Positions 15,241 to 36,907 of a stretch of 64,000 bases of DNA are shown here, in pieces. Made by a program: the position numbers and the translations under genes. The stretch spans positions 3,286,001 to 3,350,000 of the forward strand of contig NZ_CP051261.1 of NCBI RefSeq assembly GCF_014236855.1. Direction: 5' to 3'. The first letter of the stretch is position 1. Each line of letters starts with the position of its first letter. The notes beneath the pieces are model-generated. The model made no database searches. It was not told the origin of the DNA and worked only from the letters and a program-made list of their open reading frames with translations. This DNA comes from Xanthomonas sp. SI (GTDB lineage Bacteria > Pseudomonadota > Gammaproteobacteria > Xanthomonadales > Xanthomonadaceae).

Positions 15241-16143
15241 ATGTCCGGTCTGCGCCGCCTGCCCTCGCTGAATGCCCTGCGCGCGTTCGAGGCCGCCGCG
15301 CGGCTGCGCAGCGTCGGCGGCGCGGCGGCCGAGCTGCACGTCACCCACGGCGCGGTCAGCCGCCAGATCCGGCTGCTGGAAGAGGAACTGGGGCTGGCGC
15401 TGCTGCAGCGCGAGGGCCGCGGCATCCGCCCGACCGCGGCCGGCGAGCGGCTGCGCGACGCGGCCGGCGGCGCCTTCGCCCAGTTGCAGGACGCGGTGGC
15501 GGAACTGCGCCGGCCGGCGCGGCCCAGCGCGCTGGTGCTGGGTTGCCCGGGCAGCATCCTGGCGCGCTGGATGATTCCGCGGCTGCAGGCGCTGCAGCGC
15601 GACCTGCCCGCGCTGACCCTGCACCTGTCCGCGCACGAAGGCGAATTCGGCGCAGAGCTGGACGGCCTGGACGCCGCGCTGCTGCTCGGCCAGGCGCCGT
15701 GGCCGGACGGTTGGCAGGTGCACGTGCTGGCGCCGGAGCGAATCGGCCCGGTGCTCAGCCCGGCGCTGCCGCAGGCACAAACACTGGCGGCCGGTCCGCC
15801 CTCGGCACTGCTGCAACAACAGCTGCTGCACACCGCCTCGCGCCCGCAGGCGTGGCCGTCCTGGGCACAGGCGCATGGCGTGGACCCTACCGCGCTGCGC
15901 TACGGCACCGGCTTCGAACACCTGTACTACCTGCTCGAAGCGGCGCTGGCCGGCATCGGCGTGGCGATCGCGCCGCAGCCGCTGGTCGCGGATGACCTGG
16001 CCAACGGCCGCCTGCTGGCGCCGTGGGGCTTCGCCGAGACCGGCGGGCAGTGGGCGCTGTGTGCGCGCCGGGAACAGCAGGACCCGCGGGTGCAGGCGCT
16101 GGCGCGGTGGCTGGCTGGCGAGTTGCAGCAGGACGGCGGCTAA
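15241..16143 (+). CDS. trpI: LysR-family transcriptional activator of trpBA (TrpI)
   Basis: A 300-residue LysR-type regulator. The winged helix-turn-helix is at about residues 8-65 (LPSLNALRAFEAAARL..., HVTHGAVSRQIRLLEEELG). A periplasmic-binding-protein-like effector domain follows, with the stretches HTASRPQAWP and YGTGFEHLYYLLEAALAG that I associate with pseudomonad TrpI. In Pseudomonas that protein activates trpBA in response to indoleglycerol phosphate. The divergent arrangement with trpB supports the same role. An AGGAAA Shine-Dalgarno-like sequence precedes the ATG. The general name GcvA-like LysR is the fallback if the TrpI match is coincidental. Confidence 0.88.
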   Translation: MSGLRRLPSLNALRAFEAAARLRSVGGAAAELHVTHGAVSRQIRLLEEELGLALLQREGRGIRPTAAGERLRDAAGGAFAQLQDAVAELRRPARPSALVLGCPGSILARWMIPRLQALQRDLPALTLHLSAHEGEFGAELDGLDAALLLGQAPWPDGWQVHVLAPERIGPVLSPALPQAQTLAAGPPSALLQQQLLHTASRPQAWPSWAQAHGVDPTALRYGTGFEHLYYLLEAALAGIGVAIAPQPLVADDLANGRLLAPWGFAETGGQWALCARREQQDPRVQALARWLAGELQQDGG

Positions 16144-16243
16144 GCAATTTCTTTCGCCTGGTTGCCGGCGACTAGCGTTGCAGAGATGCCTCCGGAGACG
16201 CGAAGCGGCTACGGCCTAGCGTGCGACGCGTTGTCGGATGTCT

Positions 16244-16268
16244 GTCGCGGCTGAAGCCGCTCCTACAG
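16244..16268 (-). repeat. REP-like palindromic repeat
   Basis: A 25-base unit containing CGGCTGAAGCCG flanked by GTCG and CTCCTACAG. It is the exact reverse complement of 40649-40673. Such units are scattered between genes in xanthomonads. It lies in the gap between the convergent trpI and telA-like genes. Confidence 0.8.
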
Positions 16269-16323
16269 GGGCTCCCCGGCTGCTGAAAGGCATCGGCCGC
16301 TGCGCGCGGTCGGCGCGACCGCG

Positions 16324-17421
16324 TCAGCCGGCAGGGGTCGGCGCGGCCAGGCGCTGCTGCAGCTCGTCGCGCAACCGCGCCAGTTCGACCTCGGCCGCGC
16401 GCCGCTGCTGCATGCCGTCGCGGTGGATCTCGCGCACTTCTTCCACCGTGGCGATCAACTGCTCGTGTACGTGGCGCAGCGTGTCCATGTCGATCACCGC
16501 GCGCTGGTTGGCGCGCGCGGTGTCCACCGAGGTCTGCCGCATCAGTTCGGCGTTGCGGCGCATGATGTCGTTGGTGGCGTCGTCGATGGCGTTGGACAGC
16601 GCCGCCGCGTTCTGCTGCTCGCTCAGCGACAGCTGGATCGCGAACTGGCGCTTCCACGACGGGATGGTGATGTCGCGCACGGTGTTGAACTTCTCGATCA
16701 ACTGCAGCGCGTTGGCCTGGATCAGGCGGATCATCGGCAGCGCCTGGTCGGCGGCGTGCTGCATCACCTGCAGGTCGCCGACGCGCTTGTCGAGCAGGCG
16801 GATGGCGGTGTCGATCTCGGCGCGCTGTCCGCGCGCCTGCGGATCGTCCTGCCCCGCCAGCGCCAGATGCTGGTGCTGCAGTTCGGCCAGTCGCAGCTTG
16901 CCGGCAGCCACGTGCAAGCCCAGCTCGCGGCGTTCGGCCTGCACCATCTGATGCATGCGATCGAACTCGCCCACGCGCTGGCTCAGGCTCGTCTGCTGCG
17001 CACCGACATCGCGCAGCAACTGTTCGATCTGGCGGTTGGTGTCGCTGAATTTCTGCACCAGCTCGCCCTTGGAGGCGCGCAGCCGGTCGATCAGGCCGCC
17101 GATCAGCGGCACCCGCGAGCGTTCGCCGAGCTGGTCCAGCTTCAGCGCGCGCGCGATCCGCACCACCTCGCCGAGCTTGTCGCCGGTGGCTTCGAGATCG
17201 CGGTTGCGTACCTGCTCCAGCAACTGGCTGGAAAAGGCCGCGGTATGCGCGGCGACCTCGCTGCCGAACAGGTGCAGGCTGCCCGGGGCCACCTCGCGCA
17301 GCCCCTGCGCAAGCGCTGCGATCTGCTCGCGATCGTCGGCCACCAGGCCCAGGGCCTTGAGCTCGGCCGCATCGGGTGTGGCCGGCGCAACCTGCGGCAG
17401 CAGCGGATTTTCCTGGGTCAT
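16324..17421 (-). CDS. TelA-family (toxic anion resistance) protein
   Basis: A 365-residue TelA-like protein (PF05816), a family named from tellurite-resistance plasmids whose biochemical role is still unclear. It is almost wholly helical with several long amphipathic segments. It shows the conserved central block around residues 240-270 with TIPSWKRQFAIQLSL, and no transmembrane helix or signal peptide, so it is probably cytoplasmic or peripheral. It is the last gene of the five-gene minus-strand block and lies 47 bases after the orphan 239-residue gene. Co-location with a flotillin and a large AAA ATPase suggests an envelope-stress role; that is inference. Confidence 0.88.
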   Translation of the reverse strand: MTQENPLLPQVAPATPDAAELKALGLVADDREQIAALAQGLREVAPGSLHLFGSEVAAHTAAFSSQLLEQVRNRDLEATGDKLGEVVRIARALKLDQLGERSRVPLIGGLIDRLRASKGELVQKFSDTNRQIEQLLRDVGAQQTSLSQRVGEFDRMHQMVQAERRELGLHVAAGKLRLAELQHQHLALAGQDDPQARGQRAEIDTAIRLLDKRVGDLQVMQHAADQALPMIRLIQANALQLIEKFNTVRDITIPSWKRQFAIQLSLSEQQNAAALSNAIDDATNDIMRRNAELMRQTSVDTARANQRAVIDMDTLRHVHEQLIATVEEVREIHRDGMQQRRAAEVELARLRDELQQRLAAPTPAG

Positions 17422-17468
17422 CGTGCTTCTCTCCTTCGATAGCGGGACGCGGCGGCTCGGGCGCAGGC

Positions 17469-18188
17469 TCAGCGCAGTCTAGCCCGCATCGCCTGGAGTT
17501 CGGCCAGGATGCGCTGCTGCGCCTGCGCGGCGCGGGTGGCGTGGGCCGCGCCATGCGCCGCCTGCAGCGCCGACTCGGCCTGGCGCCATGCCGGCAGCAG
17601 CACCTCGCGGATATGCCGATAGCGCTGCAGCAACTCGTTGCCCTGCTGTTGCAGCAGGCGCCACTGCGCGGCCTCCAGCCGCCAGGCGACGGCGACGCGC
17701 TGCAGGTGATCCAGGCGCCGGCTCCAGGCCTCGGCCAGTTGCGTGCCGCTGGCCGGCACCGACACGGCGGCGATCCAGCGTTCGAGCGCGGCGACGCCGG
17801 CATCCGCGGCGGCAGCCATCGCGCCATGCCCATCGAGACGCTGCTGCAATCCGGCCGCCTGCTGGTCGGCGCGCAGCAGCACCACGCCCATCTGCGAACT
17901 GAGTGTTTCGGCCTCGGCCTGCGCTTCCAGGTCGCGCCCGAGCAGCCGCCCGAGCACGCCGCTGGCGCGACGGATGCGCTGCGGATCGCGCGCTTGCAGC
18001 GCCTGCTGGATGTGCTCCAGCTCGCGGACCAATGCGGCACCGCCATCGGCTGCGGTATCGCGCTGCGCCAGCACCTGGCCGACGGCGTCCAGCAACGGCG
18101 CCGCGTAGCTCGCCGCGGCCTGGGCGTCGCCCATCTGCAGCGGCGCGGCAGGCGGCTGCGGCAGCGCCGGGGCGGTGTCCGCGCTCAC
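17469..18188 (-). CDS. Orphan helical protein, 239 residues, coupled to the AAA ATPase gene
   Basis: No family recognised. The product is very rich in Ala, Gln, Leu and Arg and predicted to be a bundle of long helices, with no signal peptide, membrane helix or cysteine clusters. The GTG start at 18186-18188 overlaps the stop of the giant ATPase gene as GTGA, so it is probably made in step with it. It is followed by the TelA-like gene. Its overall look (helical, about 240 residues, next to TelA) resembles the small helical partners that accompany TelA proteins elsewhere, but no residue-level evidence links them. Most likely a structural adaptor of the five-gene system. Confidence 0.75.
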   Translation of the reverse strand: MSADTAPALPQPPAAPLQMGDAQAAASYAAPLLDAVGQVLAQRDTAADGGAALVRELEHIQQALQARDPQRIRRASGVLGRLLGRDLEAQAEAETLSSQMGVVLLRADQQAAGLQQRLDGHGAMAAAADAGVAALERWIAAVSVPASGTQLAEAWSRRLDHLQRVAVAWRLEAAQWRLLQQQGNELLQRYRHIREVLLPAWRQAESALQAAHGAAHATRAAQAQQRILAELQAMRARLR

Positions 18189-21100
18189 GCCGGGCTGGGC
18201 TCCGGATCGTCACCGCGCGCGGCCCCGGCCTCGCCGTAGAAATGCCGCGCCAGCGCTTCGTCGAGCTGGCGTTCGGCCAGCGTGCGCGGGCGGCGCTCGC
18301 GCGGCGCGACCGCGGCCGGCGTGACCGGCTCGCGCAGATAGGCGCGGACCGCCTCGGCCAGGCCCGCGAGCGCCTGCCCGGCCTGGGCGTGGCCTTCGTG
18401 CGAGCGCGCCAGCGCGTCCAGCAACGGCTGCAGTTCGGGCGCCGGCGGGGAGGCAGGCGGCGGCGCGGAAGCGGATTCGGAAACGGCGGGGGCCGGCAGC
18501 GCACGCTCGCGCTCGGCCAACACCTGCTGCAGCAGCGCCAGCATCTGCTCCCAGCGCTGCTGCGCCGATGCCGGTTCGTCGCGCAGCACCTGCAGGCCGC
18601 TGGCGATGTCGGCCAACTGCGCCACCATGCGTCCGCCGACATCGGCCTCGTCCGCGCCCATCGCCTTGTTGCGCAGGAAATCGCGCTTGATCTGCTCCCA
18701 GCGCGCCAGGTCCTCGGCGCCCATCGCGCCGCGCAGTTCGGCCAGCTTGAGCAGGTTTTCCTCGGCGCCGCTGGTCAGCAGTTGTGCCTCGCCCAGGTAG
18801 TGATCGGAGATCAGCTGCTGCAGCTCGGCCTCGTTCATCACCGGCGAGATCTTCTCCGCCAGCTTGTTCATGTTGCGGTAGCTGCCCTGCAGCCGGAACG
18901 GCGGCTCGCTGCGGTAGCGATCGTCCTGCGCGGCGCTGGCGATGTACTGCTGGTTGACCCGGTAGACCACGTCGCGCACGCGCAGCATGCGCTGCAGGGT
19001 GGCGACGATCTCGTTGATCTCCGCACCGCTGTAGGCGTGGCTCAGCGCATTGGTGGAAATCTCCTTGCCGCGGGCGCGCTCGACCAGCAGGTACAGATCG
19101 GCCAGTTCGCGCGTGGCCAGCGGCGCCAGCACCGGATTGGAGGTCAGGCTGTTCTCGATGTAGCTGAGCACGAACGCGTCCTCCATGCCGCCGAGCACGT
19201 CGCCGAGGTTGTAGACGTCGGCGCGGTTGGCGAGCATGTCCGGAATCTTGAACACCTCGCCGGACTCGGTGTACGGATTGCCGGCCATCACCACGCAGAA
19301 CTTCTTGCCGCGCATGTCGTAGGTGCGGGTGCGGCCCTTCCACACGCCCTCGATGCGACGGGTGCCGTCGCACAGCGAAATGAACTTCTGCAGGAATTCC
19401 GGATGGGTGTGCTGGATGTCGTCGACATACAGCATGGTGTTGTTGCCCATCTCCAGCGCCAGGTTGAGCTTGAGCAGTTCCTGCCGCGAGGTGGCGTCCG
19501 GCGCCTGCGCCGGATCCAGCGAGCGCACCGCGTGCCCCAGTGCTGGGCCGTTGATCTTCATGAAGACCAGGCCGAGGCGGCTGGCCACGTATTCCATTAG
19601 CGTGGTCTTGCCGTAGCCCGGCGGCGAGATCATCAGCAACAGACCCATCAGGTCGCTGCGCTTGTTCTCGCCGACGGTGCCCATCTGCTTGGCCAGGTTG
19701 TCGCCGATCACGCCCAGATAGACTTCGTTGATCAGCTTGTTGCGCACGAACGAGGACAGCGGCCGCGCCTTGAACTCGGACAGGCGCAGCTGCTCGCGTT
19801 CGCGCACGATGACCTGCTGGCGCAAGGCCTGGTAGTGGCGGAAGCCCGGCACGAAGGTTTGCTCGTGGCGGTGCAGGCGCGCCAGGAAATCGTCGATGGC
19901 GATGGTCAGGCGGCCGCCCTCGATGCGCGGATGCTCGCCGAGCAAGCCCTCCACCGTGGTCATCAACAGCACCTCGCTGTGCTGGCTGCGCAGCCGCGAG
20001 GCCAGCAGCACGATCGCCACCGCTTCCGGCACGTAGCCGGCATAGGCGACGAAGCGCGGATCCTGGCACAGGCCGTGCAGCCAATGGCTGGCCAGGGCCC
20101 AGCCGGCGGCGAGCTGGCCGCGCACGCGCTCCAGCGAACGATCGAACTCTTCGCGCAGGCCGGCCTCGCCCAAGCGCGTATGCAAGGCGTCGAGCAACTC
20201 GCGCGCGTGGCGGCTGAGCGGGAAGGTCGGCTCGCCCAGCGCCAGCTCGGCGGCCAGGTAGGCGGCGGCGGCCGCGGCGTGGCCGGCATCGAACGGCAGC
20301 AGGCTGTCGTCGACGAAGCGCTGCAGCGCCTGCTGCATCTCGGACTGCAGCGCCTGGCGGCCCTCGCCTGCGCCGAACAGGCGGAAGATCGCATCGGCGC
20401 CGGCTTGCCGCGCGACCCATGCCGCGACCGCGGCGTCGCGCTGGCGCTCGGCCCAGAACGCCATCGCCAGCGCGCGCGCGGCCGGCGCATGCACCAGCGT
20501 GCCGGCCGCCTGATGCAGCGGCAGCAAGGCCTGCAGGATGCGCGTGGCGTCGTGGTCGTGGATGCCGCGTTCGTAGCCTTCGCGATAACGCGGCGCGGCG
20601 AAATCGCGCACGCTGCGGGCCAGCGCGTCGGGCGTGGCCGCCTGCTGCTGCAGGCCAGGCAGGTCGAGTCCGTCGCGGCCGGCCAGCGCGGATTCGAGCA
20701 GGCTGCCGGCCAGGTATTCGCCGCGGTACAGGTCCGGCGATTCCGAATCCAGCGTCACCTGCCAGTAGGCGCGCGTGGCCTCCAGCGCGGCGTCGTGCAG
20801 CGGCTCCAGATAGTCGGTGCCGGTGAGGTGCAGGGCCAGTCCGTCCTCGCGCGGCAACAGGGTCAGATCCAGCGCCTGGGTGTTGACGCTGAAGCGGTGC
20901 CGCGGGCCGAGCCGGACCACGTTGCCGCCGGACTCGAACAACTCGCTGCGGTCGCGCAAGGCGCGCACCGCCTGGTCGCGCACGCCCTTCAGCCGCGCCT
21001 CGACATCGTCGGCCTTGACGCTGTCGCGGTAGCCGCGCAGGCGTTCGGCCAGTTCGCGCAGCTTGAGGATCAGCGGATCGCCGGCGAAGAAGGCATTGAG

Positions 21101-23530
21101 TTCGTCGGCCGTGGCGAAGCGTTCGGTGCGCCTGGGCAGGCCATCGAGGATGCGCGTGGCGGCGTCGAGCAGCGAGCGCGCCTTGCGCTGGCGCTCGTCG
21201 AGCAAGGCCTGCTTGTGGCTGTCGAAGGCCTCGATCAATTCTTCGCGCTTGCTGAGGATGTCGCCGAGGAACTGCTCGTGTTCGCCGAACTGGCTCTCCA
21301 GTTCCTCCAGCTGCAGCAGCAACCGCGACAGCTGCTCGTCGGCGCGCTCGGGATCGGTGGACAAGGACAGCGCGCTGGTGATGGCCTGGCCGAACAGCGC
21401 GAACTGCGCCGCGAACTGGGCCACGCTCTCGGCCGAGCCCAGGGTCTTGCGCCGCTGCTCGGCGCGCGCGCGCGCCTGGTTGAGCCGCGCATAGACTTCG
21501 GACAGGGTTTCGACCACGCGGGTGCGCTCGGTGGCGTCGTCGACCTTGAGTCCGGCCATCAGCTCGGAGAGCAGGTCCAGGTCGTTGGACAGCGCCTGCA
21601 TCGCCTGCAACTGTTCGGACAGCGTGCGCGCGGTAACCGCCGCCTGCGCCGCCGCGTCCAGTTCGGCCAGGCGTGCGTTCAACGGCGCCAGCGCGGTCTC
21701 GCTGCCAAGAAAGCGGCCGGTGGCCGCGCCGACCGTCTCGTGCGCCTGCTGCAGCGCCGCGCCCATCGCATCGATCGCCGCGGTATCGATATAGCGGTAT
21801 TCGCGGATCGTCAGCAACTGCCCGCGCTGGGCGGCGATGGCATTGAGCGGCTCGACGAACTCCTGGATCCCGGTCCAGTTTTCTGGCTGCAGCCGTGCCA
21901 GCAGCGCCTTGTGCGCGGCGACGGCGTCGACCATCGCCTGCTCGGACTGCTGGCGGATCGACAGCACCTTCTCGTATTCGTCCAGCACCGCTTCGCCGGT
22001 GGCGCTGATGCCGCGCAGCACGCCGCCGAGACCGCCGCAGTGTTCGTCGTCCAGCCAGTGGTGGGCGTCGAACAGGCGCCGCGCGTCCTCGACCAGCAGC
22101 TCGTAGCGCTGCACCGAGACCTCGTCGTGCTCGATCGCGCGCGCCAGCCCGAACAGGTTGGAGATGCCGCGCACCAGTTCGGCATTGCCGATGCGGCCGA
22201 GGAAGCTGTTGCCCGGCGTGCGGCGCGCGGCGAATTCGTCGCTGCTGAATGGCGTCTGCCAGACCTGCATCGGATGGATCCGGGTCGGCTCGGTGCCTTC
22301 GGCATGGAACAGCACCATGCGCCCGTCCTGCAACAGCGCATAGCCATGGCCGAACACCGGGTTCTGCAGCGCGCGGCGGATGGTGTTGTAGACGAACAGC
22401 GCCGACTTGCCGCCTTCGCGCTCGTAGAAGATGTACAGCACGTCCTCGCCGTTGGGCGAGCGGATCGCGCGCTTGAACTGCATGCCGTCCATCGCCGCGT
22501 CGAACGCCTTGTGATCGCCGTTCTGCAGGTAATAGCCGCCGGGGAAGATGATGCCGTGGTCCTCGGGCAGCTGCACGCAGGCCTGCACGATGGCGTCGTT
22601 GCGCACGATGCGGCCGCTGAGCGTGTTGTAGATCAGCCCGCGCCATTGCGTCTCGCGGTACGGCAGCACCTTGAGCAGGACCAGCGTGCCGACCCGCGCG
22701 AAATCGAACTGCGCGTCGTCCAGCGACTGGGTCTTGTCCTCGACCGGCTCGCTGTAGATGCCCTGCCCGGTCTCGGTGTTGTTCTCGACCTTGATGGTCA
22801 GGTCGCCGCCGATGGTTTCCACGAACAGGGTGTCGAGGATGTTCAGGTGCGAATGGCGGCCGTTCACCGCCATCTCGCGGGTGGCGCGGGTCCATTCGAA
22901 ATCGAACGGCGGCGGCAGCGCGATGTCGCGTTCGCCGCGTGCGTCGATGTAGGTCAGCTCGCCGGCGCTGTCGATCGCCCAGCGGAACACGCGCACGTCG
23001 GCGCTGCGCTCGCCGATCTGGAACGACGCCAGCAACTTGCCGCCGATGACGATCAGCTGCAGCAGCCGCGCGTGCTTGTAGTAGGCGTACAGCTCGCCGA
23101 AGTCGTGCACGAAGCCGGGTTGGCCGAGGAAACTGCCGGCCACGTCGATCGGGCTGACGTCGTAGCCGTCGGCGCCCTCGACCAGCCGGTACAGGCCGAA
23201 CACGTCCTCGATGCGGGTCTGGTTCTTGAGCCCGAGGAACACGTTGTAGCCGAACAGCAGCATGTCCTGGCCGACCTGCACGATGTCGCGGCCGACGCAG
23301 TTGTTTTCGGTGCGGATGCGGAAGCGCCCGACCACCTCGAGCCGGCTGTCGCCGAATTCCTGCAGGCGCTGCGCGTTGAGCGCCTCGACCGCTTCGTGCA
23401 GGCGCGCGCCCTGCTCGACCAGGCGCCGGCGCAGCACATCGTAGGCGCCGCCCTGGGCGACGGCCTGGTCGACCTGGGACGGATTGGCGCCCTCGGGCTG
23501 CGGATCGGTCGGGGATTGGGTTGCTGCCAT
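18185..23530 (-). CDS. Giant AAA ATPase with N-terminal DUF3686-type region
   Basis: A 1781-residue protein usually labelled 'DNA repair ATPase', a name without experimental basis known to me. Residues about 30-480 form a beta-rich region of the DUF3686 type; 490-900 are mostly coiled coil; a helical region follows to about 1250. The AAA module has Walker A PPGYGKTT near residue 1305, Walker B LYVDD near 1366-1371 and a MoxR-like sensor segment VVMAGNP near 1417. The tail is helical with a Pro/Ala-rich linker near 1690. There is no signal or membrane segment. ATG at 23528-23530 is preferred; an in-frame ATG 26 codons upstream is Arg-rich. The stop overlaps the orphan helical gene. Confidence 0.88.
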   Translation of the reverse strand: MAATQSPTDPQPEGANPSQVDQAVAQGGAYDVLRRRLVEQGARLHEAVEALNAQRLQEFGDSRLEVVGRFRIRTENNCVGRDIVQVGQDMLLFGYNVFLGLKNQTRIEDVFGLYRLVEGADGYDVSPIDVAGSFLGQPGFVHDFGELYAYYKHARLLQLIVIGGKLLASFQIGERSADVRVFRWAIDSAGELTYIDARGERDIALPPPFDFEWTRATREMAVNGRHSHLNILDTLFVETIGGDLTIKVENNTETGQGIYSEPVEDKTQSLDDAQFDFARVGTLVLLKVLPYRETQWRGLIYNTLSGRIVRNDAIVQACVQLPEDHGIIFPGGYYLQNGDHKAFDAAMDGMQFKRAIRSPNGEDVLYIFYEREGGKSALFVYNTIRRALQNPVFGHGYALLQDGRMVLFHAEGTEPTRIHPMQVWQTPFSSDEFAARRTPGNSFLGRIGNAELVRGISNLFGLARAIEHDEVSVQRYELLVEDARRLFDAHHWLDDEHCGGLGGVLRGISATGEAVLDEYEKVLSIRQQSEQAMVDAVAAHKALLARLQPENWTGIQEFVEPLNAIAAQRGQLLTIREYRYIDTAAIDAMGAALQQAHETVGAATGRFLGSETALAPLNARLAELDAAAQAAVTARTLSEQLQAMQALSNDLDLLSELMAGLKVDDATERTRVVETLSEVYARLNQARARAEQRRKTLGSAESVAQFAAQFALFGQAITSALSLSTDPERADEQLSRLLLQLEELESQFGEHEQFLGDILSKREELIEAFDSHKQALLDERQRKARSLLDAATRILDGLPRRTERFATADELNAFFAGDPLILKLRELAERLRGYRDSVKADDVEARLKGVRDQAVRALRDRSELFESGGNVVRLGPRHRFSVNTQALDLTLLPREDGLALHLTGTDYLEPLHDAALEATRAYWQVTLDSESPDLYRGEYLAGSLLESALAGRDGLDLPGLQQQAATPDALARSVRDFAAPRYREGYERGIHDHDATRILQALLPLHQAAGTLVHAPAARALAMAFWAERQRDAAVAAWVARQAGADAIFRLFGAGEGRQALQSEMQQALQRFVDDSLLPFDAGHAAAAAAYLAAELALGEPTFPLSRHARELLDALHTRLGEAGLREEFDRSLERVRGQLAAGWALASHWLHGLCQDPRFVAYAGYVPEAVAIVLLASRLRSQHSEVLLMTTVEGLLGEHPRIEGGRLTIAIDDFLARLHRHEQTFVPGFRHYQALRQQVIVREREQLRLSEFKARPLSSFVRNKLINEVYLGVIGDNLAKQMGTVGENKRSDLMGLLLMISPPGYGKTTLMEYVASRLGLVFMKINGPALGHAVRSLDPAQAPDATSRQELLKLNLALEMGNNTMLYVDDIQHTHPEFLQKFISLCDGTRRIEGVWKGRTRTYDMRGKKFCVVMAGNPYTESGEVFKIPDMLANRADVYNLGDVLGGMEDAFVLSYIENSLTSNPVLAPLATRELADLYLLVERARGKEISTNALSHAYSGAEINEIVATLQRMLRVRDVVYRVNQQYIASAAQDDRYRSEPPFRLQGSYRNMNKLAEKISPVMNEAELQQLISDHYLGEAQLLTSGAEENLLKLAELRGAMGAEDLARWEQIKRDFLRNKAMGADEADVGGRMVAQLADIASGLQVLRDEPASAQQRWEQMLALLQQVLAERERALPAPAVSESASAPPPASPPAPELQPLLDALARSHEGHAQAGQALAGLAEAVRAYLREPVTPAAVAPRERRPRTLAERQLDEALARHFYGEAGAARGDDPEPSPA

Positions 23531-23658
23531 CGTCAACGGCTCCTGCCGGCTTGCATGCGGCCGGCGCGCGTCGCCGCGCGCCGTGTTCTCAGCGGGGTCC
23601 GGCGGCACGTGGCCGCCGCTGGATCGCGCAGCGCGCGCGGATCAGCCCAGGCCCAGGC

Positions 23659-25647
23659 TCACGGCTGCGCGACGGGCAGCGCGACGGCGCCCTCCGCCGC
23701 AACCGGCTTGTGCCGCTCCACGCCCAGGTAGCGCTGCATCAGGTCCTGCACGATCGGGCTCTTGTCGGCCAGGCCCTCGATCGACTTGCCGAGCGAGACC
23801 GCCTTGATCAGATTCTCGAACATGCCGCCGTCGCCGCCGACCAGGTCGATATCGGCATTGCGCAGCGCGCTGGCGATGACCTCGGCGTTTTCCTTGGACA
23901 CTTCCTTGCCGGCCTCGATCGAGGCCAGCGCCTGCTTGAGGCTGGTGTCGAGCATCATCCGGAACTCCTCGTGGCCGCGCGCGGTGTCGCTGAGCGCGCC
24001 GATCGCCTCGAACTTGCGGGTCAGGCCCTCGGCCTCGGCGAACAGGCGTTTCTCGACCACGTTCGCCTCGGCCAGGCCGATCGACTCGGCCGCGCTGGCC
24101 TTGGCCTTGCCCATCTGTTCCTCGCCCTGCGCCTTGGCCTGCAGCGTCTCGGCCAGCACGCGCGCATCGTTGCTGCCCTGCTTGAAGCTGGCTTCGGCCT
24201 TGGCCTCGATCACCCGCGCCTCGGCGATGCCCACCTTCTCGATCGCCAGCGCCGAGGCTTCCTTGACCTGTGCGTCGGCCAGGCCGGGCGCGGCCTTTTC
24301 GGCGCGCATGCCGTCGGCCAGCAGCTTCTTGGCTTCGGCCTGCTTGCCCGCGGCCTCGTGTTCGGCCTGCGCCAGGGTGGTCAGTTCGACCGCACGATGC
24401 TTGGCCGCGGTCTCGCTTGCCTGCGCTTCCTTGACCTGGCGCACCAGCTGCTCCTGCGCCTTGGCCTCGGCTTCCAGGATCGTCACCTGCTTGTGCCGGT
24501 CGGCCTCGGCCACTTCGCGCACTTCCTTGATCCGCTCCTCTTCCTGGGCCACGGTCTTGTCGATGGCGATGCGCTCGCGGGTGATGTTGGCCACGTCCAT
24601 CTTGCCGTTCTCCACCACCTTGTCGCGCTCAACGCCCTGCAGCTGCACTTCGCGATCGGTGGTGACCTGCTCCAGTTGGCGCGCGCGCGTGACCCGCTCG
24701 ACCTCGATGGCGACCGCGCGCTGGCGGTTCTGTTCGGCGACCTCGACCTCGCGCATGCGGTTCTGCTCGCGGATGTCGATCAGCTGCTGCGCCTCGATGC
24801 GCGCATTCTCCGACAGCTGGCGCTGCTCTTCCTGCACCTTCAGCGTCTCGGCCTGTTCGCGCGCGCGGATCGTGTCGACCTCGCGCTTCTGCCGCGCCTC
24901 GGCCTCGGCCTGCTGCCGCTCCAGCGCCAGCAGCGCCTCGCGCGCTTCCACGTTCTTCTTGGTGATCGCCAGCTTCTCGTTCTGCTCCAGCTCGTTGGTC
25001 ACCACGTTCTGGGTGGCGGTCAGCTCGGTGATCTTGCGGATGCCCTCGGCGTCGAGGATGTTGTGCGGATCCAGCAGCGACTTCGGGGTCTGCTCCAGGT
25101 AATCGATCGCCACGTCCTCGAGCACGTAACCGTTGAGGTCGTTGCCGATCACCGCGATGATCTCATCGCGGAATTCCTGGCGCTTCTCGAACAGTTCGGT
25201 GAACTGGAACTTCTTGCCGACCGTCTTCAGCGCCTCGGAGAACTTGGCGTTGAACAGCTCGTCGACCGCATGCTTGTCAGAGGCACGGTCGGCGCCGATC
25301 GCCTTGGCCACGCGCAGCACGTCGGCCTGGGTCTCGTTGACCCGCAGGTAGAACGCGACCGCGATGTCGGCGCGCATGTTGTCGCGGCAGATCAGGCCTT
25401 CCTTGCCGCGGCGATCGACCTGCAGGGTGATCAGGCTGATCCGCATCAGCTCGGCGCGGTACAGCACCGGCACGATCAGCGCGCCGGTGAAATGCACCTT
25501 CGGCGTCGAACTCATGTCGTTGACGATCAATGCCACGCCTTGGTCGACCTTGCGGTAGAACGCCTTGAACAGGCCAGCCAATCCCAGCAGCAGCACCAGC
25601 AGGATGCCGACGCCGATCAGAAACGGCGCCATCGTCGCAAAACTCAT
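23659..25647 (-). CDS. yqiK: Flotillin/SPFH-domain membrane protein (YqiK-like)
   Basis: A 662-residue flotillin-family protein. One transmembrane helix at about residues 8-28 anchors it in the inner membrane, an SPFH/Band-7 domain follows (about 32-210, with VDRRGKEGLICRDNMRADIAVAF), then a very long Glu/Gln/Ala/Arg-rich coiled coil (about 220-520) and a flotillin C-terminal region. Flotillins form large oligomeric assemblies in membrane microdomains. The coiled coil is longer than in E. coli YqiK. The ATG at 25645-25647 overlaps the YqiJ-like stop (ATGA), the classic YqiJ-YqiK pair. A gap of 128 bases to the ATPase gene may hold an internal promoter. Confidence 0.93.
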   Translation of the reverse strand: MSFATMAPFLIGVGILLVLLLGLAGLFKAFYRKVDQGVALIVNDMSSTPKVHFTGALIVPVLYRAELMRISLITLQVDRRGKEGLICRDNMRADIAVAFYLRVNETQADVLRVAKAIGADRASDKHAVDELFNAKFSEALKTVGKKFQFTELFEKRQEFRDEIIAVIGNDLNGYVLEDVAIDYLEQTPKSLLDPHNILDAEGIRKITELTATQNVVTNELEQNEKLAITKKNVEAREALLALERQQAEAEARQKREVDTIRAREQAETLKVQEEQRQLSENARIEAQQLIDIREQNRMREVEVAEQNRQRAVAIEVERVTRARQLEQVTTDREVQLQGVERDKVVENGKMDVANITRERIAIDKTVAQEEERIKEVREVAEADRHKQVTILEAEAKAQEQLVRQVKEAQASETAAKHRAVELTTLAQAEHEAAGKQAEAKKLLADGMRAEKAAPGLADAQVKEASALAIEKVGIAEARVIEAKAEASFKQGSNDARVLAETLQAKAQGEEQMGKAKASAAESIGLAEANVVEKRLFAEAEGLTRKFEAIGALSDTARGHEEFRMMLDTSLKQALASIEAGKEVSKENAEVIASALRNADIDLVGGDGGMFENLIKAVSLGKSIEGLADKSPIVQDLMQRYLGVERHKPVAAEGAVALPVAQP

Positions 25648-26339
25648 CGGTGGATCTCCTTATCGCCCGCAATCAGGCTGTGGGGTAACGGCGAACCCGG
25701 CTGATCCTGCTCGCGGGCCACCAGGTAATGATTGTGCGCATGCACGTAGTCGACCAGCACGACGCGCTCGCCGCGCAGGTACTGGCTGCCGGACGGCGCG
25801 CGCACCTGCAGCACCAGTCCGGCGCCGCCGTCGTCGACATTGGCGTAGCCGCTGCCGGCATCGACGCGCGGCGAGGCGATCACCCCGACCTTGCCGAGCA
25901 GCGACTGCTGCGCGACCGGACGCAGCTTCAGCAGCAGGCGCCGCAGCGGCCGCAGCATCCACGAGGTCAGCGGCACCGCCGGCACCAGCGCCAGCAGCGC
26001 GACCGCGCTGCCCAGGCCCCAGCGCACCCCGTCCGGCACCCCCTGCAGCAGGAACAGATGCGCGAAATAGGTGCCGGTCCAGGCCCAGAACGACAGCAAC
26101 GCCACCACCAGCATCAGCGGCGCACCGCCCAGGCCGAGCCGCGCGAAGATGCCGGAAATGCCATGCAGGCCGTGCTCGGCGCCGTGCGCGCCATCCACAT
26201 GCAGATGCAGATGCCCGTCGGCGAGGTGGTGATCGGCAATGCCGGTCGCGGCCAGCAGCCAATAGATCGCCGAGAATCCCAGCAAAATGCTGTACGGCAG
26301 CGTGGGAAACCCCAGTGCGACGCTCAAGAACTCGGCCAT
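25644..26339 (-). CDS. yqiJ: YqiJ-like membrane protein with C-terminal OB fold
   Basis: A 231-residue inner-membrane protein of the YqiJ (PF07290) type, which pairs with YqiK flotillins. There are three hydrophobic segments: about residues 12-30, a second near 75-100 and a third near 115-135. A beta-rich OB-like domain follows (GKVGVIASPRVDAGSGYANV...). Unusually, the loop after the first helix (DNA about 26158-26235) has eight histidines in about 26 residues. The start ATG at 26337-26339 gives MAEFLSVALGFP; an ATG four codons earlier is an alternative. This is the first gene of the block. A TATGAT at 26465-26470 (minus) is a possible -10 element with no clear -35. Confidence 0.85.
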   Translation of the reverse strand: MAEFLSVALGFPTLPYSILLGFSAIYWLLAATGIADHHLADGHLHLHVDGAHGAEHGLHGISGIFARLGLGGAPLMLVVALLSFWAWTGTYFAHLFLLQGVPDGVRWGLGSAVALLALVPAVPLTSWMLRPLRRLLLKLRPVAQQSLLGKVGVIASPRVDAGSGYANVDDGGAGLVLQVRAPSGSQYLRGERVVLVDYVHAHNHYLVAREQDQPGSPLPHSLIAGDKEIHR

Positions 26340-26616
26340 TCCCTCATCCATCCCTGTGCGGGCAGCGCACATCGCCATCAGGCGCGTGCGCTGTCGCTTC
26401 ATCCTCATCGGCCGGCAGCGCGCATCACGCGCGGCGCGGCATCGCCGACCGACCCCTGGCCCGGATCATACGATAAAGGCGTGACCGCACCCAGCGCGGC
26501 GCGCAAGCGCCATGGCGGTGGCGCGTCTGGATCTGGCGGCGCGCGGAGCGGCCGATTGCGCAGCCATACTGCTGCGTACGCGGCCTTGACGACCTAGCGT
26601 GGCGGCGCAGTCCGCT

Positions 26617-27279
26617 CTAGCAGTTGGTGTTCAACTCGTGGCAATCGGCGCGGCGCACTTCCTCGACGAACTTGCGCATCTTGTGCCCGTCCTTGATGCC
26701 CGGCTGGCTCTCGATGCCGCTGGACACGTCCACGCCCCACGGCAAGGTGGCGATGATCGCGTCGAACACGTTGTCGGAGGTGATGCCGCCGGCCAGCAGG
26801 AACGGCCGGTGCAGGCCGGTGGGCAGGCGCGTCCAGTCGAAGGTCTTGCCGGAACCGCCGCTCTCGCCCGGGGCGTGGCTGTCGAACAGGAAGCCCGCCG
26901 CGTTCGGGTACTGCAACTGCAGGGTGCGTGCGTTGATGTCGCTGCCGCCCATCGGTACCGCTTTCAGGTACGGCAGGTTGAAACCGCGGCAGAAGCCGTC
27001 GTCCTCGTCGCCATGGAACTGCAGCAGGGTCGGCCGCACCGTGCGCAGCACTTCGCGCACCTCGTCCTTGGGGTTGTCGCGGAACAGCGCGACCACGTCG
27101 ACCATCGGCGAGGCGGCCTGGCGCATCGCGCGGGCCTCGGCCGGCGCCACCCGCCGCGGGCTGCCGTGGGCGAACACGAATCCCACCGAATCCACCCCAA
27201 GTTCGCCCGCCAGGCGGATGTCGCCGGCACGGGTCATGCCGCAGAACTTGATGCGGGTGCGATACAGGGTTCGATTCAT
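26617..27279 (-). CDS. trpF: Phosphoribosylanthranilate isomerase
   Basis: TrpF isomerises phosphoribosylanthranilate in tryptophan synthesis. The 220-residue beta/alpha barrel starts [14 protein letters not shown], the family signature with catalytic Cys in KFCG, and has the phosphate-binding LLAGGIT and GVDVSSGIE segments near the C-terminus. Length is normal. The ATG at 27277-27279 overlaps the truA stop as ATGA. It is separated from trpBA by about 10 kb filled by the flotillin/AAA/TelA block and trpI; in the xanthomonad order I know, trpF is next to trpBA. Confidence 0.97.
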
Positions 27280-28049
27280 AGGGTGACCTCGGCCGGTAGC
27301 TTCCAGATATCGGGGTAGAGAGGACCGACGAAGACCAGTCCCTGCGGCGGCGCCGTCGGGCCGGCGACGCTGCGGTCGCGCCCGGCAAGCAGTTCGCCGA
27401 TCCAGGAAACCGGCTTCTCGCCCGTTCCTACCATGATTAAGGAGCCTACGATATTGCGCACCATGTGATGAAGGAATGCATTGGCCTGGACCTGGACCTC
27501 GACGACCTCGCCGATTCGGGTCACCGCGATCGCCTGCAGCTCGCGCCGCGCATGCAGCGCCTGGCACTGGATGCTGCGGAACGCGCTGAAATCCTGCTCG
27601 CCCAGCAACGCCTGCGCGGCGGCATGCATCGCCTCGGCCTGCAGCGGCCGCCGCTCCCAGCTCAGGGTCTGCCGGTACAGCGCCGGGCGTACCTGGCGGT
27701 TGAGCAGGCGGTAGCGGTAGCGCCGCGCGCGCGCCGAGAAGCGCGCATGGAAATCGTCCGCGGCCGGCACGCACCAGCGCACGCACACCGACGCCGGCAA
27801 GCGCGCGGTGGCGCCAAGCATCCAGCCGCGCGGCGCGCGTGGCGCATCGCAATCGAAATGCACGACCTGGCATTCGCCGTGCACGCCGGCGTCGGTGCGA
27901 CCGGCGCAGACCACGCTCACCGGCGTATCGGCCACCGACGACAGCGCCGCCTGCAGCGCCGCCTGCACGCTCGGCCCGCCGGATTCGCCGAGCTGCTGCC
28001 AGCCCTGGAACTCGCTGCCGTCGTATTCCACGCCCAGCGCATAACGCAT
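27276..28049 (-). CDS. truA: tRNA pseudouridine synthase A
   Basis: TruA makes pseudouridine at positions 38-40 of the anticodon arm of many tRNAs. The 257-residue product has the catalytic Asp in the [10 protein letters not shown] motif, an N-terminal [10 protein letters not shown] block, the RYRYRLLNR segment, and the [12 protein letters not shown]-terminal block. It lies directly upstream of trpF with a four-base overlap and downstream of fimV, the usual arrangement in this group. Confidence 0.97.
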
Positions 28050-28055
28050 CGCGCC

Positions 28056-28295
28056 CTACTCCGTCACAACGCGCAATGCGGGCCACAGCGGCCATGGCGC
28101 TGCGCTGCGGCACGCTAGCGCATATGGGTTCGTGCGAGGCCCAGCGGCGCTCGCCGCGGGCGGGCGCAACCGCGGCAACAGCGCAGCCGCGATGCAGGTC
28201 CCCGGCGCCGCCATGCTTGCCTCGCGCGCCAGCCGGGACAGCGCCTGGCGGCGTGTCGGCGGCATCACCGCAAGGTCGAGGAGGTGTTCGCGCAT
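28056..28295 (-). CDS. Possible 79-residue small protein (weak)
   Basis: The 305-base gap between fimV and truA holds one plausible frame from ATG at 28293-28295 to a stop at 28056. An AGGGA Shine-Dalgarno-like sequence lies 8 bases upstream of the ATG. The first 45 residues look like a small protein ([20 protein letters not shown]...), but the remainder is Ala/Pro/Arg-rich as in random high-G+C frames. There is no recognised family. Apart from this I see nothing in the gap. Confidence 0.25.
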
Positions 28296-28354
28296 CGTCG
28301 CATTCCCTGTCGAGGCAGCGCGGCGGCGACTGCGCCGCACGCCGCCTGCGCGCA

Positions 28355-30370
28355 TCAGCTCAAGCGGGCCAGCAGTTGCTGGGCTTCGGCACGCGCCGCC
28401 GGATCGCCGCCGGCCGCCACTTCGGTCAGCAGAGTGCGCGCGGTTTCGTTGTCGCCCAGGTCCATGTAGGCCACTGCCAGCTCCAGGCGCTCGCGGCCGA
28501 TCGGCGGATACGTGGGCTCCGGTTCGACGCTCGATTCGGCGGCGGCAGACAGATCGCCCTGGTGCCAGGTCGGCTCCTGGCGTTCCGCCACCACCGGCGC
28601 GACCGGCGTCGGCGCCGACGGCGGCTGCCGCCATGGTTCGTCGGCGTCGAGCGGCGCCTGCGTCAGCGGTGCGACCTCGGCATCGGGCCGTAGCGCGAAC
28701 TGCGCATGCTCCGCGGCAGGCGCGGCGTCGGCATCGGCATCGACGTCGTCGTGACGCGGCGCATGCCCGGCAAGCTCGCGCTCGAATGCGTGGTCCTGGT
28801 ATGCCCGGTCTTCGGCGGCCGCGTCTTCGGCCACCTCGCGCTCGTGTTCGTCCAGCGGCGGCAGGTCCGGCGCGTCCACCTCGCGATGCGCCACCACCGG
28901 CACCGCCGCGGCCAGTTCCGCCGCGTCGTAGCCGTGCCGCGGCAGCGGCGGCAACGGCGAAGGCTTGCGTCGGCGCGACAGCAACAACGCGCCGATGCCC
29001 AGCACCAGCAGCGCCAGCCCGCCCCACAGCCACAGCGGCCAGCCGCTGGAGGCCGTAGCCGGCGCGGGTTGCGCCTGCGCCTGGGTCTGCCCGGATTGCG
29101 CCAGGCGCTTCTGCGCCGCGGCCAGGTCGCTGTCCTTCAGTGCGATCAGTTGCTGCTGCTGGGCCTTGAGCTTTTCCAGCTGTTCGACCCGCGAGCGCAG
29201 TTCCTGGACCTCGGCATCGCGTGCCGCGAGATCTTCGCGCGCCTGCTGCAATTGTTGAGTCGCCACCATGTCTCCCTCGTCGCCGGCACCGGTGCCGGAC
29301 TTGGTTCCTGCGTTGTCGCGCTGCGCCGGCACCGCCGGCGCGATTTCCAGGCGTGCGCCCGACGCCGCCGTGGCCGTCGCGGCGGCGGGTTTGGCGGCCG
29401 CCGGCGCAGGCGCATCGGCCTGCTGCGCCTGTGCCGGCTGCGGCACTGGCGCACGCGCCTGGCGCCATTGCGCGGCCTGTTCGCGGACGATGGCGGTGGC
29501 CGCAGCGGCATCGATGCTGGCCAGTTCTTCCTGACGCGGCGTGCGCAACACTGCGCCCTGCTTGAGCAGGTTGACGTTGCCGCGGATGAACGCATCCGGG
29601 TTGGCGCGCAGCAGCGCGACCATGGTCTGGTCCAGCGAGTGGCCGCCGCTGCGCGCCAGCTGCCCGGCGATCTGTGACAGGGTCTGCCCGCGCTGCACCG
29701 GCGCCAGCGCATCGCCCGGCGCCGCAGTGGGTGCCGGGGCACTGCGGACCGGCGTGGCGGGCGCGGCCGACAGCGCAGGCGGCGGGCTGTTGACGACCGC
29801 TGGCGGCGCCGTTGCCGGCGCCGGCAACGGCTCGCTGCGGACGATGCGGTCGGACGGCGCGGCGGCGGCCGGGGCATCGATCGCCGGCGCGTCGATCGCC
29901 GCGGCGGTGTTGGGCGCGTCGAGCAAGGCCGAATATTCGCGGATCAATCGGCCCTGGCCCCAATCGACCTCGATCAGGAAGCTCAGCGACGGCACCTCCA
30001 CCGGCATCTGGCTGCTGACGCGGATCACCGCGCGGCCCTGGTTGGTCTGCGCGAAGCGGAACTGCAGGCTGCCGACCAGGCCGTCCGGGCGCTCCAACCC
30101 GACCCGGGCGAAGGTCGCCGGCGAGGCCAGCGCGACGCGTGCGTTTTCCAGCTCGCCCGGTTCGTTGGAGATCACCGGGATCTCGGCCAGGAACGGCTGG
30201 CCGGGTTTGGACAGGACGCGGATGTCGCCCAGTCCCAGCGCCAGCGCGGCCTGGCTGCAGGCCAGCAACAGCAGCGCGCACGCCGCGCGCCAGCCGCGGC
30301 TCGTGCCGAGTGCAATGGAAGTGCCTTCGCCGCCATGGCGGCGGCGGAAGAAGCGTGGTTGTAGGCGCAT
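28355..30370 (-). CDS. fimV: FimV-family pilus/cell-pole assembly protein
   Basis: FimV is a peptidoglycan-binding hub protein needed for type IV pilus function and polar assembly (established in Pseudomonas). The 671-residue product has a signal peptide (hydrophobic core [13 protein letters not shown] around residues 31-44), the conserved FimV N-domain ([21 protein letters not shown]), a LysM domain around residues 225-280 ([19 protein letters not shown]...), a coiled coil, one membrane helix at about 440-463, an acidic cytoplasmic stretch and a short C-terminal TPR-like cap ([20 protein letters not shown]). The ATG at 30368-30370 is chosen; a GTG one codon earlier is possible. Confidence 0.93.
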
Positions 30371-30476
30371 CACGCCCCTGCCCTTGGTGTCATGGCGTGC
30401 AATATAGCCGTTGCCCTTTGGATTGTGGCGTTCGTCTACGAGGCTGTGCGACGGAGCCTTGCAGCAACGCGTCGCC

Positions 30477-30978
30477 TTGCTCCCCTTCTCCCATCGGGAG
30501 AAGGTGCCCCGCAGGGGCGGATGAGGGTACGGGTATCACGCGTGCTATCGGGCATCGCGAGGGCTTCGCCCCGTACCCTCACCCCTAACCCTCTCCCGAT
30601 GGGAGAGGGGGTCTTGGCTTCGGTTGTTGTGCTGCACGCTCAGGCAGCCCTCCCTTCTCCCACCGGGAGAAGGTGCCCCGTAGGGGCGGATGAGGGTACG
30701 AGCGAAGCCTCGTAGGATCGAAACAGTGCGAGGGCTTCGCCCCGTACCCTCACCCCTACCCCTCTCCCGATGGGAGAGGGGGTCTTGGCTTCGGTTGTTG
30801 TGTTGCGCGCTCGGGCAACCCTCCCTTCTCCCACCGGGACCACGGCCCCCTTTTTGGGAGAAGGTGCCCCGCAGGGGCGGATGAGGGTACGGGCGAAGCC
30901 TCGTGGGATCGAAACAGTGCGAGGGCTTCGCCCCGCACCCTCACCCCCGGCCCCTCTCCCGCAGGGAGAGGGGAGATA
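30477..30978. repeat. Array of palindromic intergenic repeats
   Basis: The 612-base gap between asd and fimV is mostly repeats. The segment GAGGGCTTCGCCCC starts at 30559, 30730 and 30921, giving units of 171 and 191 bases. Each unit holds paired palindromes of the type CCTCTCCC-GATG-GGGAGAGG and CCTTCTCCC-x-GGGAGAAGG, with about 90% identity between units by eye. One copy carries an extra CCACGGCCCCCTTTTTGG insertion. Related single units occur at 36995, 56335 and 63495. No coding sequence is seen. Confidence 0.9.
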
Positions 30979-30982
30979 GCGC

Positions 30983-32008
30983 TCAGCCTTCCTGCGCCAC
31001 CAGCTCGGCCAGTTGCACCGCGTTGAGTGCGGCGCCCTTGCGGATGTTGTCGGAGACGATCCACAGGTTGAGGCCGCGCGGATGCGAGATGTCTTCGCGG
31101 ATGCGGCCGACGTAGACCGCGTCGTTGCCGGAGGCGTGGGTGACCGGAGTCGGATAGCCGCCGGCCTTGCGCTCGTCGACCACTTCCACGCCCGGCGACG
31201 CGGCCAGCAGCGCGCGCGCCTGCTCGGCGCTGACCTTGCGCGTGGTCTCGATCGCCACCGCTTCGGAGTGGCCGTAGAACACCGGCACGCGCACCGCGGT
31301 CGGGTTCACCTGGATGTTGTCGTCGCCGAGGATCTTGCGCGTTTCCCAGACCAGCTTCATCTCTTCCTTGGTGAAGCCGTTCTCCAGGAAATCGTCGATG
31401 TGCGGGATCAGGTTGAAGGCGATCTGCACCGGGAAGCGCTGCGGGTCGATCGCCTGGAAGTTGAGCAACTGGCCGGTCTGCTTGCCCAGTTCTTCCAATG
31501 CCGAACGGCCGCCGCCGGACACCGACTGGTAGGTGGCCACGTTGATGCGCTCGATGTTGTACTCGCGGTGCAGCGGCGCCAGCGCCACCAACATCTGCAT
31601 GGTCGAGCAGTTGGGGTTGGCGACGATGCCGCGCGGACGCTGCTTCAGCGCTTCCGGGTTCACTTCCGACACCACCAGCGGCACGTCGTCGTCGTAGCGG
31701 AATGCCGAGGAGTTGTCGATCACCACCGCGCCGGCGGCGGCGAACTTCGGCGCGTATTCCTTGGAGATGCCGCCGCCGGCGGAGAACAGCGCGATGTCCA
31801 CGCCGGTCGGGTCGAAGCTGGCCAGGTCTAGCACGGTGACCTTCTGGCCCTTGAACTCGACCTGGCCGCCGGCCGAGCGCTCGGAGGCCAGCGGGTACAG
31901 GGTGGCGATAGGGAAGTCGCGCTCGGCGAGGATGTTCAGCATGGTTTCGCCGACAGCGCCGGTGGCGCCGACGACGGCGACGTTGAAACGACGGGATTCG
32001 TTGCTCAT
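30983..32008 (-). CDS. asd: Aspartate-semialdehyde dehydrogenase
   Basis: Asd reduces aspartyl phosphate to aspartate semialdehyde, the branch point to lysine, diaminopimelate, threonine and methionine. The 341-residue product has the NADP-binding GATGAVG at residues 14-20, catalytic Cys134 in ANPNCSTMQ and the conserved VATYQSVSGGGRSALEEL segment. Length is normal. The ATG at 32006-32008 is clear. It is 100 bases downstream of the hydroxyacid dehydrogenase gene and precedes fimV across a repeat array. Confidence 0.97.
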   Translation of the reverse strand: MSNESRRFNVAVVGATGAVGETMLNILAERDFPIATLYPLASERSAGGQVEFKGQKVTVLDLASFDPTGVDIALFSAGGGISKEYAPKFAAAGAVVIDNSSAFRYDDDVPLVVSEVNPEALKQRPRGIVANPNCSTMQMLVALAPLHREYNIERINVATYQSVSGGGRSALEELGKQTGQLLNFQAIDPQRFPVQIAFNLIPHIDDFLENGFTKEEMKLVWETRKILGDDNIQVNPTAVRVPVFYGHSEAVAIETTRKVSAEQARALLAASPGVEVVDERKAGGYPTPVTHASGNDAVYVGRIREDISHPRGLNLWIVSDNIRKGAALNAVQLAELVAQEG

Positions 32009-32108
32009 GGGAGATTGTTCGATCGGGTAGGAGAAAGGGGGAACAGCCGCACTGCCAGCTGGATTCGGGGAACCTCCCGAGCGCGCCGCTCAGGTCGCCG
32101 GAGGTTCC

Positions 32109-34245: not shown

Positions 34246-34255
34246 GGCCGCCGGC

Positions 34256-35182: not shown

Positions 35183-35261
35183 GGCAACAGGCAAGGCAAT
35201 TCGGCCCCCGATTATAGGGGCCCGGCCGCTATCATGAGCGTTCGTTGCAAGGGAAATCAGT

Positions 35262-36754: not shown

Positions 36755-36808
36755 CGCACGGCGGCGCGACGCACGCAGGGGCGCCGTCCTTGTCCTGCGG
36801 CGCGGCAC

Positions 36809-36907
36809 GATTTCAATTACGGCTGCACCGTGATCGTGCTGCCGCGGACAACCATGGCGACGCTCGATCTGGCGCTGGCAGCGGAAGCGCCGGTCCGACT
36901 CAGTTAA
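36809..36907 (+). pseudogene. Degraded partial duplicate of the psd 3' end
   Basis: Read in frame, this 33-codon stretch gives DFNYGCTVIVLP ... LDLALAAEAPVRLS and a stop, matching psd residues about 242-275 ([13 protein letters not shown] ... [13 protein letters not shown]) with many DNA identities. The catalytic Ser of the GST motif is Cys here. There is no start codon or upstream homology. It is a relic of a tandem partial duplication. Confidence 0.8.

Follow-up and report, generated by a model that had tools for sequence, protein, structure and literature searches.

A KlaA-KlaB (TelA) pair in a flotillin-DUF3686 ATPase operon of Xanthomonas and its possible relation to PspA

The stretch of 64,000 nucleotides of the Xanthomonas sp. 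SI genome analysed here (positions 3,286,001 to 3,350,000 of contig NZ_CP051261.1; hereafter the window) contains five genes in a row, which encode a YqiJ-like membrane protein, a flotillin, a giant AAA+ ATPase with a DUF3686 domain, a KlaA homologue and a KlaB-type TelA protein. We propose that they constitute a shortened membrane-maintenance operon of the Bac/PSP type, in which the KlaA-KlaB(TelA) pair may do the work of the DUF2170-PspA pair of related operons, a reading to which we give roughly even chances. The gene identities at the locus are near certain. New are the assignment of the fourth gene to KlaA and of TelA to the KlaB type, the klaAB pair in a flotillin-ATPase operon, and a second recruitment of TelA.

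The fourth gene was regarded as an orphan in an earlier note, a description which does not hold. A first search revealed 28 related proteins, and those labelled with an organism come from Xanthomonas, Stenotrophomonas and Luteimonas. The single sequence gave no match when compared to plasmids by tblastn. A tandem pair of a short TelA and a TelA protein on a 53 kb contig of another gammaproteobacterium (locus L141) pointed towards plasmids. With the TelA protein of the window 663 plasmid records were matched, every one below 60% identity, and in five of the six plasmid neighbourhoods read TelA is preceded by a gene at the position of klaA. The five plasmid proteins and the L141 protein were recognized by a profile built from the 28 relatives, with hidden Markov model E values of 8.6e-28 to 1.2e-23, while the best of 5000 shuffled decoys reached 0.18. 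Compared to the six KlaA proteins the profile gave hhalign 99.0% (E 2.6e-18), and to KlaA of pRP1 alone E 2.6e-15. The six KlaA proteins match the Pfam TelA family with 29-41 bits, five of them above the 30-bit cut-off, and KlaA and KlaB were reported to be homologous to each other (PMC5696584; the papers cited here are used from the portions available to us). Genes 4 and 5 are therefore assigned to a TelA-superfamily pair and, judged by these profiles, gene 4 is a KlaA homologue, a short and diverged member of that superfamily.

A tree of TelA proteins (51 rows) unites the 20 operon proteins in a single clade (100/100), which groups with six KlaB proteins from plasmids or a plasmid-like contig (94/99). 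The AlphaFold2 model of KlaA is all helical (predicted local distance difference test score, pLDDT, 91.9), as is that of TelA (pLDDT 73), which has two long antiparallel helices of about 75 residues each. Neither protein contains predicted membrane helices. Some public records call relatives of KlaA "fused signal recognition particle receptor", a name for which no support was found. The klaA-klaB pair of L141 (contig 2 of genome G166, 17000-36900) lies beside genes which by eye resemble ParA, ParB and Fic; the contig is likely a plasmid, and its KlaB is identical to that of an IncP plasmid locus of K. michiganensis (L164).

The window is part of a single contig of 5.25 Mb, and its nearest protein matches are from Xanthomonas. 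The five open reading frames (Table 1) have the order, strand and coordinates which the earlier note had given, and the junctions agree as well. The YqiJ-like and flotillin genes overlap by four bases (ATGA), as do the ATPase and klaA genes (GTGA), while 128 bases separate flotillin from ATPase and 47 bases klaA from telA. These overlaps and the gaps of at most 128 bases suggest a single transcript for all five genes.

Table 1. Genes of the flotillin-ATPase-klaAB operon in the window.
Product	Position	Strand	Length and start	Basis or domains
YqiJ/YuaF (NfeD-type) inner-membrane protein	25644..26339	-	231 aa, ATG 26339	profile comparison with E. coli YqiJ
YqiK-like flotillin (SPFH/Band-7)	23659..25647	-	662 aa	profile comparison with E. 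coli YqiK
Giant AAA+ ATPase	18185..23530	-	1781 aa	DUF3686 N-terminal, DUF7902, AAA C-terminal
KlaA homologue (earlier "orphan")	17469..18188	-	239 aa, GTG start	profile comparison with KlaA
KlaB-type TelA	16324..17421	-	365 aa	PF05816 230 bits and tree

The klaA and klaB genes are otherwise known from plasmids, as in the kilA operon (klaA-klaB-klaC) of the IncP plasmids RK2, RP1 and RP4, where they are likewise adjacent, in the same order, and encode homologous proteins. In contrast to the window the kilA operon is plasmid-borne, and a third gene occupies the klaC place in four of five plasmid loci (the fifth is cut). The klaAB pair of the window is chromosomal and is followed by genes other than klaC. 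No flotillin or AAA ATPase is annotated in the plasmid kilA stretches read. KlaA, KlaB and KlaC of RP4 inhibit the transfer of IncW plasmids (FiwB), which needs all three proteins (PMC5696584), and klaAB together with the ATPase platform may in the same manner interfere with conjugation. We regard such a plasmid barrier as very improbable: no KlaC match was obtained in 23 genomes, by a search that lacked a positive control; a comparison of the five proteins to defence models yielded no more than two weak matches (E 0.006 and 0.019), in each case with the ATPase; and the core without klaAB has a far wider distribution among the loci read.

That core consists of the YqiJ-like protein, the flotillin and the ATPase. 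It was followed through 101 loci. These were the window itself, 20 loci from one genome sample and the best 80 of 573 from another scan, a choice which favours near relatives; some genomes occur in both sources. In 93 of the 101 loci the three genes occur in this order, and the other eight are cut by contig ends at most 2.3 kb upstream of the ATPase. Given this order the core trio is more than a chance association. Its named hosts include Pseudomonas, Delftia, Providencia, Pseudoalteromonas, Myxococcus and a planctomycete. DUF3686 proteins were found in 8 of 398 genomes of a phylum sample, 30 of 250 of an order sample and 5 of 20 of a genus sample, with the own genome counted each time. The earlier note had expected scattered co-location of all five families if they form a system, and had taken a restriction to close relatives as refuting it. 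The trio is scattered over many hosts and does not fail by that rule; the five-gene set (22 loci) is confined to close relatives and as a system does fail. A genomic link of TelA proteins to the flotillin-ATPase unit is supported as well, and it arose at least twice (see below).

Nor is the system undescribed, as had been assumed. Ravi et al. 2024 reported the trio together with a CesT/Tir(DUF2170)-PspA pair, as well as abbreviated forms without PspA (PMC11237479). The window shares the core trio with these operons and differs from them by having klaAB and no PspA. The word "TelA" is absent from the main text of that paper (main text only, with no search for KlaA). In Pseudomonas aeruginosa the bacABCDEF operon comprises DUF2170, PspA, NfeD/YqiJ and flotillin genes plus two more, and its co-transcription including PspA was demonstrated by reverse transcription PCR; the flotillin is PA14_16180, the NfeD gene PA14_16160, and biofilm and rhamnolipid phenotypes are described for bacA (PMC10948618). 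The gene order is the same as in the core, and the bac operon is apparently the same system. It differs in its DUF2170-PspA pair, and klaAB is not mentioned in the available portion of that paper. From the gene order in related Pseudomonas loci BacE is possibly PA3728 and the DUF3686 protein. PA3728 is listed as "ATPase" in the gene table of a review on cystic fibrosis adaptation (PMC8190622).

Wherever the klaA-klaB pair is present (22 loci), it follows the ATPase gene directly and in the same orientation. All these loci are from Xanthomonadaceae except L036, which is labelled only Pseudomonadota and is cut before YqiJ. In five loci (L022, L035, L151, L152, L153) klaAB is located between the ATPase and a PLD gene. 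A search of 119 genomes of the family revealed ten TelA genes, of which eight are klaB-type operon genes and two (L148, L149) lie away from the operon; seven of the eight are covered by the loci read (L022, L024, L150-L153) or by the window itself, and for G704 the coordinates match the genome of L035.

A second TelA subfamily is found at the opposite end of the operon, upstream of DUF2170-PspA, in eight loci of another family (f94). It was first seen in L021 and L023, with a broad TelA profile applied to all genes of the 101 loci, and then in L020. Ten more f94 loci gave five further cases (L178, L179, L181, L182, L185) and two without TelA (L177, L180), while three are cut upstream (L183, L184, L186; the L183 genome has no TelA match). 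Thus eight of ten f94 loci with a visible upstream region carry TelA. One gene intervenes between TelA and DUF2170-PspA in L021 and L179. Two of these proteins were scanned and match Pfam TelA with 76 and 81 bits; those of G471 and G570 are recognized by the family profile, although the genome-wide search scored them below the Pfam cut-off. The upstream subfamily forms one clade (97/99). A single origin of the upstream and the klaB-type operon proteins was rejected by the approximately unbiased test (p 1e-66; some subfamily branches are long). The broad profile detected no TelA outside these two groups in the 101 loci. In a tree of the ATPases (40 rows, "quick" mode, with support from the Shimodaira-Hasegawa-like approximate likelihood ratio test only) klaAB needs one change. 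In the ATPase tree used for the comparison with PspA (see below) a single change is likewise enough for each of the two TelA types. TelA-family proteins have joined the DUF3686 operon at least twice, independently.

It could be argued that klaAB is a passenger, captured from a plasmid and placed behind the ATPase for transcription only, which would by itself confer tolerance to tellurite or envelope antibiotics and make no contact with ATPase or flotillin. The nearest relatives of klaAB outside the operon are plasmid-borne, and the operon itself is either complete or entirely missing: it occurs in 5 of 20 Xanthomonas genomes and is missing from 15, and trpF adjoins LysR-trpB in all ten genomes read without it. 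We nevertheless consider this rather unlikely, as the position of klaAB behind the ATPase is maintained in 22 loci from several genera, and as elsewhere this operon was joined by a distant TelA.

The distribution of PspA provides a suggestive link to TelA. The own genome encodes no PspA. Because the DUF2170-PspA pair is not present in the window operon, the locus is filed as an abbreviated form of the flotillin-AAA operon plus a chromosomal klaAB pair, and not as a full Bac operon. Among 76 genomes with DUF3686 proteins 37 have a TelA match, namely 18 with the kla pair in the operon, 8 with TelA upstream in the operon and 11 with TelA elsewhere or cut. A PspA with at least 100 Pfam bits was found anywhere in the genome for none of the 26 with in-operon TelA, versus 37 of the 50 others. 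Sixteen of the 26 have no PspA match and ten have matches of 53-72 bits. Four more klaAB genomes, which were found via TelA (L150-L153), have 47-70 bits. Within f94 the TelA-bearing genus shows PspA matches of 52-69 bits or none, the other genus 122-125 bits, one partial match aside. At the level of loci, the PspA matches amount to 0-72 bits in the 28 rows with TelA and to 122-188 bits in 17 of the 24 others (rank test p 0.0002, which ignores relatedness). These rows comprise only genomes with a genome-wide PspA search, and the 24 comparison rows were chosen by us. Left out were 16 trio-only loci (L013, L014, L049, L053, L059, L083, L085, L087, L089, L091, L093, L095, L098, L100, L101, L107); their omission favours the contrast, and when they are counted the number becomes 17 of 40. 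L086, in which an in-operon PspA is present, and the cut loci L015, L036 and L057 were left out as well.

Several points weigh against the proposed membrane-maintenance role and the replacement of PspA by klaAB. The tree contains two TelA changes only, so that a sign test cannot reach significance; across random pairings a change of PspA in the same direction is seen in 1.7 of 2 pairs and a change in the opposite direction in none, again too few for significance. Canonical PspA has also been lost from operons without TelA there (L016, L017, L018, L027, L028, L029, L030), 16 further trio-only loci have neither PspA nor TelA in the operon, and five genomes (G398, G681, G683, G686, G687) have no PspA match at all. 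Xanthomonas genomes without the operon also lack PspA (4 of 4 sampled), and therefore the absence of PspA in the genus is not caused by klaAB. No sequence relation to PspA was found by hhalign (4.1% for TelA, 0.3% for KlaA), and fold searches with the KlaA and TelA models were not decisive for a PspA/ESCRT-III fold. Deletion of the bac flotillin in P. aeruginosa reduced biofilm by about 20%, with no other effect noted in the available portion of the source. Finally, DUF2170, PspA and klaAB occur together in eight loci, which therefore indicate that addition came first and loss later, and no simple swap. In the 40-row ATPase tree the twelve klaAB rows that lack PspA, from Xanthomonas, Stenotrophomonas and Luteimonas deserti, fall together in a single subclade (99) of the klaAB group. 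The simplest story would be a single gain of klaAB behind the ATPase and a later single loss of the PspA pair.

A separate observation concerns L016, L028, L029 and L030 (families f97 and f2), where a shortened relative of PspA occupies the PspA place (hhalign 95.9%) and no TelA is present in the operon. The protein of L016, the only one scanned, has no Pfam match.

According to our proposal of a shortened Bac/PSP-type operon, YqiJ and flotillin would provide an inner-membrane platform, on which the all-helical KlaA and TelA would assemble upon membrane damage. The DUF3686 ATPase would turn over these assemblies using ATP, as Vps4 does with ESCRT-III. ESCRT-III/Vps4 is a parallel by the proposed principle alone, in which helical proteins bound to a membrane are handled by an AAA ATPase; no homology to that system is shown, and the DUF3686 ATPase has other N-terminal domains. 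KlaA and TelA would then be substrates of the ATPase and replacements of PspA, and the operon would serve envelope stress tolerance. A direct substrate role of KlaA and TelA is tentative, and the chances are somewhat against it. One may instead assume that the ATPase is a chaperone which acts mainly on the flotillin/YqiJ scaffold or on a membrane complex, with KlaA and TelA (or PspA) as adaptors or regulators and not as remodelled polymers. The near-constant trio would fit well, as PspA is found in the operon in only 54 and klaAB in 14 of the 101 loci, but on its own this view leaves the repeated joining of helical PspA or TelA proteins unexplained, and we hold it to be distinctly improbable.

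TelA and kilA genes have been known for decades, to our knowledge without a mechanism. The basis of most such systems was described as unclear, and kilA/telAB of RK2 does not give very high tellurite resistance (PMC6955997). In Lactococcus telA was raised 3.4-fold in a table of membrane-protein stress which also lists cesSR (PMC3139573), and in Listeria a telA mutant shows increased sensitivity to both nisin and tellurite (PMC12791056, citing Collins 2010). The XpaC-TelA pairs of Bacillota resemble klaAB by the combination of TelA with a small partner and by their envelope-stress settings (PMC12791056, PMC3139573). Their partner belongs to another family, and the likeness is one of description, with the Bacillota TelA sequences outside the comparison. 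Two independent entries of TelA, in genomes without canonical PspA, offer a concrete and testable partner and job for TelA, and tie a gene pair of plasmids to an envelope system of the chromosome. It is speculative, and in our opinion unlikely, that the TelA superfamily (TelA, KlaA and KlaB) represents another class of membrane-repair proteins which resemble PspA in function but not in sequence, and on which the DUF3686 ATPase works. If true, the kilA operons of plasmids would encode members of this class but no such ATPase, and the host-lethal, tellurite and anti-IncW effects of kilA would all follow from action at the inner membrane.

The ATPase gene starts with ATG 23530, which is preceded by AGGAG; an in-frame GTG at 23608 would give 1807 residues. 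Pfam assigns DUF3686 to residues 44-491 (651 bits), DUF7902 to 613-695 and AAA_5 to 1298-1425 (25 bits; AAA also 25 bits), so that the protein has one AAA domain, at its C-terminus. Ravi et al. 2024 assigned a beta-propeller fold to the N-terminal part (PMC11237479). The nearest solved chains are p97-type ATPases and RuvB, mostly with coverage of the P-loop. The term MoxR-like, used in the earlier note, is only weakly supported by these matches. The Walker A motif reads SPPGYGKTT and Walker B ends with DD; the Walker A core and the terminal DD are invariant in 19 aligned ATPase sequences. Most AAA+ ATPases have DE at the end of Walker B, and by this difference the activity may be unusual. Public records often call the protein a DNA repair ATPase, a name for which no support was found. 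That it is indeed a DNA repair enzyme with incidental neighbours is hardly to be expected: apart from the Pfam and NCBI names, the idea draws on a weak similarity of the AAA domain to RuvB, which covers the P-loop region only, as with p97, and the constant partners are flotillin and YqiJ-like proteins.

The window proteins of the other two core families have no Pfam match, and their names therefore needed a profile comparison with the E. coli proteins, which bears out the names YqiJ-like and YqiK of the earlier note. The profile of 23 YqiJ relatives matches E. coli YqiJ with hhalign 94.4% (E 9e-8), and PF21001 is found in three of the 23 (best E 0.0026). By hydropathy the protein has three or four hydrophobic stretches. 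The flotillin, which has one N-terminal hydrophobic helix, gave a family profile (23 relatives) that matches E. coli YqiK with hhalign 99.9% (E 9e-34); Band_7 is detected in two (best E 1.2e-9) and Flot in four (best E 0.0054) of these relatives.

In Xanthomonas the operon is located between trpF and the LysR-trpB genes. In the window (15241-26617) it splits the trpF-(LysR)-trpB-trpA neighbourhood; in genomes without it the spacing of trpF and LysR is 0.04-0.5 kb. Accessory genes at most six genes from the ATPase were counted in the 101 loci: DUF2170 (57), PspA (54), PLD-like (28), a family of about 113 residues (18), rhomboid-like (17), KlaA (14) and TelA (14). The 113-residue family (c6) lies near YqiJ, mostly between PspA and YqiJ (L016, L020, L021, L023 and 14 others), and the one member tested has no Pfam match. 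The rhomboid-like and PLD-like genes follow the ATPase in many operons (L011, L039, L041 and others), and their products could serve this system as a membrane protease and a hydrolase.

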